From Phycisphaerales bacterium (GTDB taxonomy: Bacteria; Planctomycetota; Phycisphaerae; Sedimentisphaerales; Anaerobacaceae), in NCBI GenBank assembly GCA_003141315.1, contig PLLP01000014.1, forward strand, positions 105,803 to 138,476: a DNA stretch of 32,674 nt. Reading direction: 5' to 3'. Of the stretch, positions 8,780 through 28,839 are shown in pieces; positions within the stretch are counted from its first letter, which is position 1, and every line of letters starts with the position of its first letter. The notes under the pieces were generated by a model that was not told where the DNA came from, searched no databases, and was given only the letters and a program-made list of their open reading frames with translations. Made by a program: the position numbers and the translations under genes.

Positions 8780-9132
8780 CCAGCTCCCGAAATACCTCGT
8801 CGACAGAATCCGTTTTTGTCCCTCAGGCACACTCTGTTTTGGTCACCATAAAACTGCGTCATATAATAACCCTTGATATGAAACTGAAAAACACTCCCGC
8901 TTTTTGGTTGAAACTATTTTTTCAAAAAATACGTATGCAGCATTAACGAATATTTTGATTTTAGGTACCTGCTTCTGAATACGGATGAAATTGCAACACC
9001 GGCAAAAATGTTTGTTCGCAGAGGAAAAAATTACCTGTTCGATTCGGTGAGGTTCCGGCCTTTGCCATTTCCAATTGTAGGTTTTGCCGCAAAAAGGCGG
9101 TTTACAGGAAAAAGGGCGGCAACAAATCGACG
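8780..9132. other. Intergenic stretch upstream of the sigma-54 promoter
   Basis: No convincing gene. Contains AT-rich sequence and, near its 3' end, the inverted pair TTGCCGC (9084-9090) and GCGGCAA (9116-9122), with a further TTGCCGC downstream at 9195-9201. The pair lies 10-50 bases upstream of the -24 element and could be a binding site for an activator, or only an RNA stem. Confidence 0.4.
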
Positions 9133-9148
9133 TGGCACAATGTTTGCA
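9133..9148 (+). promoter_or_regulatory. Sigma-54 (RpoN) promoter
   Basis: TGGCAC (9133-9138), five bases, TTGCA (9144-9148): an exact match to the -24/-12 consensus TGGCAC-N5-TTGCW including the GG and GC dinucleotides. Transcription is expected to begin near 9159, giving a leader of about 105 bases to the EF-hand gene. A sigma-54 promoter implies an AAA+ enhancer-binding activator. Confidence 0.75.
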
Positions 9149-9264
9149 GGGTTTTCTTCATTATCCTGTTGTTGCCAAACGCAGAATGTCTGTGTTGCCG
9201 CAGGTTAATAAAAATTACAACATAAGTATTACACAGATACTGATGAAGAAAGAAGGTGATAATT

Positions 9265-9789
9265 ATGACAATCAGTGGAATTGGACAGAGTATGTCGATG
9301 CAGGGCATGTATGGAATGAAGCCGCCGAGCGCGAAAGATATGGCCAGCCAGATAATGAAGGACCTCGATACCAACGGGGATGGCGTTCTGAGTGCGGACG
9401 AAATCAGCAAAGGCGGTGAACGCGCAAAGAAAATCCTCCAGGCCGACACTAATGGTGACGGCCAGGTTACCTTGGATGAGCTTCTTGCCGACATTTCAAA
9501 AAATATGCCGCCAATGCCGGGAATGCAGCCGCCGAGTGCGAGCGATATTGTCACCCAGATAATGGATGACCTCGACACCAATAAAGACGGCGTCCTGAGC
9601 GCAGACGAAATCAGCAAAGGCGGTGAACGTGCGAAAAAAATCCTCGAGGCTGACGCCAATGGTGACGGCAAAGTTACTAAGGATGAGCTTCTTGCTGACA
9701 TTTCAAAAAAGATGGCAAGTATGTCCACCTATCTGATGGCACAATCCGACCAGACAGATAAAAACTCGAGTGTTAGTGTACTTGCTTGA
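9265..9789 (+). CDS. Four-EF-hand calcium-binding protein
   Basis: A 174-residue acidic protein with four canonical EF-hand loops: DTNGDGVLSADE, DTNGDGQVTLDE, DTNKDGVLSADE and DANGDGKVTKDE. All have Asp/Asn at positions 1, 3 and 5, Gly at 6 and Glu at 12. The loops form two tandem pairs of about 65 residues (PPSAKDMASQIMKD... and PPSASDIVTQIMDD...), so the gene arose by internal duplication. The N-terminus (MTISGIGQSMSMQGMYGM) is Met/Ser/Gly-rich and is not a normal signal peptide. ATG 9265 has GAAGGTGA six bases upstream; the in-frame GTG at 9256 overlaps that SD and is rejected. Probable calcium buffer or sensor under sigma-54 control. Confidence 0.85.
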   Translation: MTISGIGQSMSMQGMYGMKPPSAKDMASQIMKDLDTNGDGVLSADEISKGGERAKKILQADTNGDGQVTLDELLADISKNMPPMPGMQPPSASDIVTQIMDDLDTNKDGVLSADEISKGGERAKKILEADANGDGKVTKDELLADISKKMASMSTYLMAQSDQTDKNSSVSVLA

Positions 9790-9804: not shown

Positions 9805-9847
9805 CTGACCCGACAAGAATTTGCCTTTTTGTCGGGTCAGTTTTTTT
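9805..9847 (+). terminator. Strong rho-independent terminator after the EF-hand gene
   Basis: CTGACCCGACAA (9805-9816) pairs perfectly with TTGTCGGGTCAG (9829-9840), followed by seven T (9841-9847). It isolates the EF-hand gene as a single transcription unit. Bases 9848-9978 after it are AT-rich and hold nothing recognisable. Confidence 0.95.
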
Positions 9848-10014: not shown

Positions 10015-10208
10015 TTGCGGGATTACCCCTGCACTGTTCGTATTGAAAATTTGATTTGAAAAAACCGATACCAGCAAACCAGGGAAATTGTGCCTTGATG
10101 AGTTGAAAAAGCCTTTAACCAAAGGACTTTCTTTCATCAACGACAATTACCCACCTTGAAATACTGGGTTTGTTCCAAACATTTTCATACGGCAGTGGCG
10201 GAGGCGAA
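10015..10208 (+). ncRNA. ssrS: 6S RNA-like structured RNA
   Basis: Non-coding, rod-shaped fold like 6S RNA, which binds the sigma-70 RNA polymerase holoenzyme. Closing stem: CACTG (10032-36)/CAGTG (10193-97), CGTAT (10039-43)/ATACG (10187-91), GAAAAT (10045-50)/ATTTTC (10181-86). Terminal arm: GGG (10082-84)/CCC (10150-52), AATTGT (10086-91)/ACAATT (10143-48), TTGATGA (10095-101)/TCATCAA (10134-40), CCTTT/AAAGG closing an AACC loop. Between them is a large central bubble. Bubble strands contain ACCGATACCA and CACCTTGAA...GGGTTTGTT, close to CCGATA...ACCA and CACCTTGAACCAAGGGTTCA of E. coli 6S RNA. It has its own promoter and terminator and a length near 190. Ends are approximate. Confidence 0.72.
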
Positions 10209-28764: not shown

Positions 28765-28839
28765 TCGGGGCGAGTGGACTTGAACCACCGACCTTTGGAC
28801 CCCCAGTCCAACGCGCTAGCCAAACTGCGCTACGCCCCG
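28765..28839 (-). tRNA. tRNA-Pro (anticodon GGG)
   Basis: Read on the minus strand from 28839: acceptor CGGGGCG (28833-28839) pairs with CGCCCCG (28766-28772). The D-arm has AGTTTGGCTAG. Anticodon stem TTGGA/TCCAA encloses loop CTGGGGG, giving anticodon GGG. The T-arm has GTTCAAGTC. Discriminator base is A (28765), and CCA is not encoded. A well-spaced promoter lies directly upstream. Confidence 0.95.

Follow-up and report, generated by a model that had tools for sequence, protein, structure and literature searches.

A conserved sigma-54 promoter element precedes a single-gene unit for a predicted four-EF-hand calcium-binding protein in a planctomycete and its relatives

To our knowledge, bacterial calcium signalling offers few clear cases in which a calcium-binding protein is the dedicated output of a regulated switch. 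A locus of a flagellated Phycisphaerales bacterium (assembly GCA_003141315.1, contig PLLP01000014.1, positions 105,803 to 138,476; the whole stretch of 32,674 nucleotides that was analysed is called the window below) raises the question of whether a small EF-hand protein is produced in this manner, and in response to what. The preliminary description had placed an exact TGGCAC-N5-TTGCA site about 130 bases 5' of the gene, and this is what we find: the -24/-12 element TGGCACAATGTTTGCA is an exact consensus match on the forward strand at 9133-9148, it begins 132 bases before the ATG at 9265, and its GG (9134-9135) and GC (9146-9147) are 10 bases apart, the canonical spacing of sigma-54 promoters with the TGGCAC/TTGC consensus. 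Within the window it is the sole exact match to TGGCAC-N5-TTGCW, and the whole genome of 2,347,534 bases holds only nine, this one included; a control pattern (reversed, uncomplemented) matched once there. Looser matches are at chance level (a scan of the window allowing up to two mismatches found 12 sites versus 17 expected), so the case rests on exactness, on the genome-wide comparison and on conservation. Judging from sigma-54 geometry, transcription would start near 9159 and produce a 5' untranslated leader of about 106 bases (9159-9264, +).

The gene itself (9265-9789, +, stop codon TGA at 9787-9789) was delimited from its open reading frame, Pfam matches and the starts of its homologues, which begin at the equivalent methionine and thereby support ATG 9265; a ribosome-binding site, AAGGTGA, can be read 5 bases before it (9253-9259, +). 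The protein of 174 amino acids scores well above the cut-offs of several Pfam EF-hand models and has four 12-residue loops that fit the canonical DxDxDG pattern with glutamate at position 12: DTNGDGVLSADE at residue 35 (9367-9402, +), DTNGDGQVTLDE at residue 61 (9445-9480, +), DTNKDGVLSADE at residue 104 (9574-9609, +) and DANGDGKVTKDE at residue 130 (9652-9687, +). They form two EF-hand pairs that arose by internal duplication (50 of 60 amino acids identical), and at the DNA level 150 of 180 bases are identical within window positions 9322-9708, which suggests a fairly recent event. By sequence, the nearest proteins of solved structure are calcium binders of the EF-hand type, and this protein would be expected to bind calcium; a single-sequence AlphaFold model (mean pLDDT 45.6) was too weak to use. 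No Sec signal, that is, no hydrophobic stretch of the Sec type, is apparent at the N-terminus. The simplest reading of its role is that of an inducible calcium buffer or sensor.

Downstream, an intrinsic terminator (9805-9847, +) consists of a 15-pair stem with 7 GC pairs followed by TTTTTTT, so that the description of a four-EF-hand protein with a strong terminator of its own is confirmed on both counts. The gene is monocistronic, the next feature being a 6S (SsrS) RNA gene at 10023-10208 (+), located between this terminator and a DUF2344 gene (Rfam score 61 bits, gathering threshold 46). A tRNA gene was also noted elsewhere in the window (28765-28839, -). A structured leader RNA was considered and rejected, given that the fold of 9159-9300 is not unusual (z = -0.74), and Rfam gave no match in the leader region 9159-9264.

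Further evidence for sigma-54 control comes from the homologues. A search covering 161 genomes of the same order recovered ten intact members with the conserved N-terminus, the window included; a frameshifted copy (G102) and a decayed gene (G064) were left out of this count. A -24/-12 site with at most one mismatch lies within 200 bases upstream of the start codon in eight of the nine other homologous genes, at distances of -67 (genome G036, TGGCACTTTTTTTGCT), -72 (G139, TGGCATAAATTTTGCA), -105 (G065), -112 (G030, CGGCACAGGAGTTGCA), -120 (G109), -123 (G061), -125 (G062) and -140 (G063), the sample being small and the intact homologue of G089 (L105), which has no such site in that interval, being the exception. 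First-order Markov resampling of the upstream stretches gave 0.028 such genes on average, with a maximum of 2. The preliminary description had named absence of the site before orthologous genes as evidence against its proposal, and conservation is instead what was found. Several carriers are near relatives (G061, G062, G063 and G065 belong to one genus, and G030 and G109 to another), so the number of independent events is lower than eight; counting the window, the sites cover five genera, drawn from three families of this order. Because the gene neighbours vary between carrier groups, conservation of the promoter is not a passive consequence of conserved surroundings. Signal-peptide EF-hand proteins from elsewhere had no comparable enrichment of -24/-12 sites upstream, and 392 genomes across the phylum yielded no additional member with the conserved N-terminus. 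Two further matches were not counted: that of G108 (L116) differs at the N-terminus and lacks a site, and that of G112 (L112, contig C401) is of a beta-proteobacterial type and was set aside as suspected contamination, its contig probably being foreign to a genome of this order.

The host appears equipped to use such a promoter. It encodes a single RpoN (Sigma54_DBD, E = 4e-53, open frame of 503 amino acids) and five proteins with strong Sigma54_activat matches (207-246 bits): a pair within a large cluster of flagellar genes on contig C12, a GAF-type activator on C20 beside a region that reads as ammonium-transporter/PII-like, and two of the response-regulator type, on C14 and on C8, the latter some 30 kb away from the EF-hand gene. 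Together with the site kept before homologues, these components make sigma-54 control of the four-EF-hand gene well supported as far as genome comparison goes. The company that the site keeps points the same way. Inspection of the genes downstream of the other eight exact sites placed five of these sites at flagellar genes or adjoining them: one heads a flgB-flgC-fliE-fliF series, a second precedes fliK, a third flgD-flgE, a fourth lies before a TPR gene that has fliD on one side and an activator gene on the other, and a fifth before a glycosyltransferase gene adjoining flgL-flgK. Since at least three of the eight stand directly before flagellar operons or genes, the motif marks plausible working sigma-54 promoters. 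Of the remaining three, one is intragenic (C18:51173) and the others precede dnaK and a TPR lipoprotein-like gene. That motility and chaperone genes should be under sigma-54 control agrees with a published survey of Planctomycetota sigma-54 regulons; the dnaK site (host genome G000, C12:167757-167772, L025) fits the enrichment of chaperone genes reported there, and calcium is not mentioned in the main text of that survey (PMC12316311).

Which activator, and hence which signal, would serve the EF-hand gene? The preliminary description had listed nitrogen status, motility, envelope stress and development as candidate cues, and the flagellar genes downstream of other sigma-54 sites give motility some standing. 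Flagellar sigma-54 promoters in four genomes have in common the element TATAGAAnCCTkACr, located some 103-115 bases upstream of the -24 element, with scores of 15-20 bits (the host's own flgB promoter and C12:10601, and the flgB-side promoters of G061, G063 and G030; L020, L021, L185, L187 and L189), which makes it a candidate enhancer for a flagellar activator. The same element scored no better than background in any of the nine EF-hand promoters that carry a site, and on this point the motility cue finds no support. The EF-hand promoter of the window has a different candidate enhancer (UAS) at 9082-9095 (+), where a 13-base palindrome, TTTTGCCGCAAAA, which occurs once in 214 kb of the host's own sequence, overlaps the 12-mer TTGCCGCAAAAA (9084-9095). 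This 12-mer recurs exactly in the EF-hand promoter of G036 and in these two genomes only, at -49 in the window and -48 in G036 relative to the -24 element; the two organisms belong to different families and their homologous proteins are 57% identical. With the flagellar element missing from the EF-hand promoters and TTGCCGCAAAAA kept in two genomes, the activator is probably other than the flagellar one, the shared 12-mer being modest evidence of a separate regulator.

We therefore favour, with a probability of roughly 0.7, the reading that the gene is a lone member of the sigma-54 regulon which, probably through a non-flagellar activator, produces a soluble four-EF-hand calcium buffer or sensor when a signal is present. 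RpoN-containing RNA polymerase would occupy the -24/-12 element (9133-9148). An NtrC-type activator that is probably distinct from the flagellar one would bind upstream, at the candidate site 9082-9095, and would open the promoter when its own signal is present. As the predicted leader (about 106 bases) leads into just one gene before the terminator, the switch would yield a single product, a small acidic protein with four EF-hands and no Sec signal. Its two EF-hand pairs would bind calcium, and it could act as an inducible soluble buffer or sensor. Maintenance of the promoter before relatives in other genera, despite their differing neighbours, makes it very likely that production of the protein is induced on demand by a specific signal.

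The alternative that survives best, and that we still regard as unlikely, places the gene within the flagellar regulon, expressed along with the hook and rod genes, its product being a calcium-dependent protein of motility or one associated with the flagellum. It draws on the sigma-54 sites before flgB, fliK and flgD in the host's own genome and in carrier genomes, and on short matches, such as AAAGGCGGTT, common to the window and the flgB promoter of G036, which may indicate a component shared between EF-hand and flagellar promoters. Each of the 10 carriers has FliD, compared with 113 of the 161 genomes searched in the order, a weak association (Fisher p = 0.034, uncorrected for kinship), and G064, where the EF-hand gene is decayed, has no detected FliD in a genome that is only 75% complete. 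However, the flagellar element at about -105 stays at background in the nine EF-hand promoters, which led us to reject membership by way of a common upstream element, although the flagellar promoters of G036 and G139 also have no clear copy of it. Moreover, in none of the carriers examined does the EF-hand gene have flagellar genes as its neighbours, and it is missing from most flagellated genomes of the order. Certain beta-proteobacterial relatives (L151-L155, L165, L167-L169) have small EF-hand proteins beginning MSxIxxI, and most of the corresponding genes are preceded by a TTTAC-N5-TTTAC box (CpxR-like on the other strand), also found upstream of the L112 gene, together with G[AC]CGATA. 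We rejected this group as a second witness: G[AC]CGATA, present upstream in 10 of 16 relatives versus 0.24 expected, resembles a sigma-28 -10 element and could equally be a sigma-70 -10 element, and most of the genes have the TTTAC-N5-TTTAC box. FliD is found in 14 of the 16, compared with 99 of 150 (p = 0.09).

Rather improbable is a second alternative, by which the product is a secreted calcium-binding protein exported by a non-Sec route such as the flagellar type III export gate, in the manner of XopAW-like proteins. The N-terminus is conserved (M[DET][IV]xx[ILV]) and yet contains no hydrophobic Sec-type signal, and the top NCBIfam match is the XopAW family (NF041410), aligned from near the start in some homologues. 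EF-hand repeats, the lack of a Sec signal and, in some members, a similar short N-terminus are indeed common to both groups. Nevertheless, all scores fall between 26 and 75 bits (61.4 for the window protein and at most 75 for its homologues) against a curated cut-off of 120, so that membership was rejected; cross-matches of this kind arise from EF-hand repeats alone, as with lanmodulin, and the locus has no type III effector context. Finally, that the -24/-12 match arose by chance and that the gene is served by an ordinary sigma-70 promoter is very improbable. In its favour, two-mismatch sites do not exceed chance frequency, one exact site out of the nine is intragenic, and a sigma-70-like site, TGGTCA-16-TATAAT, lies further upstream at 8840-8867; against it stands the conservation before eight of nine homologues, far above expectation.

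Compared with described systems, the promoter resembles known RpoN promoters dependent on enhancer-binding proteins in its exact -24/-12 consensus and spacing, in the presence of RpoN and NtrC-type activators, and in its candidate upstream palindrome, and differs from them in that its target is a lone EF-hand gene. That this pairing is unusual, as had been proposed, is in part borne out: the open-access literature on EF-hand proteins with sigma54/RpoN and flagella or Planctomycetes contains no description of it in this group. There is, however, a precedent in Bradyrhizobium DOA9, where a 2026 study lists an EF-hand gene as down-regulated in an rpoN mutant, an RpoN dependence similar to that proposed here in a host of a different phylum (PMC13207237). 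The periplasmic CaBP of Caulobacter is likewise a small bacterial protein with several EF-hands and a link to regulated gene expression, but it carries a Sec signal peptide, its EF-hands number three, and its connection is to sigV rather than to sigma-54 (PMC13171946).

As a by-product, the analysis lists sigma-54 promoters of a poorly studied group in usable form and adds a candidate enhancer for its flagellar promoters. More broadly, a sigma-54 promoter kept across genera before a monocistronic EF-hand gene makes it possible to test the idea of a calcium-binding protein as a dedicated output. It is tempting to go further and propose, as a tentative extension that we consider somewhat doubtful, a lineage-specific module in which a dedicated non-flagellar NtrC-type activator switches on a lone calcium-binding protein through sigma-54, possibly followed by its release by a non-Sec route. 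If true, this would mean that these bacteria shift their calcium buffering or signalling on one specific cue.
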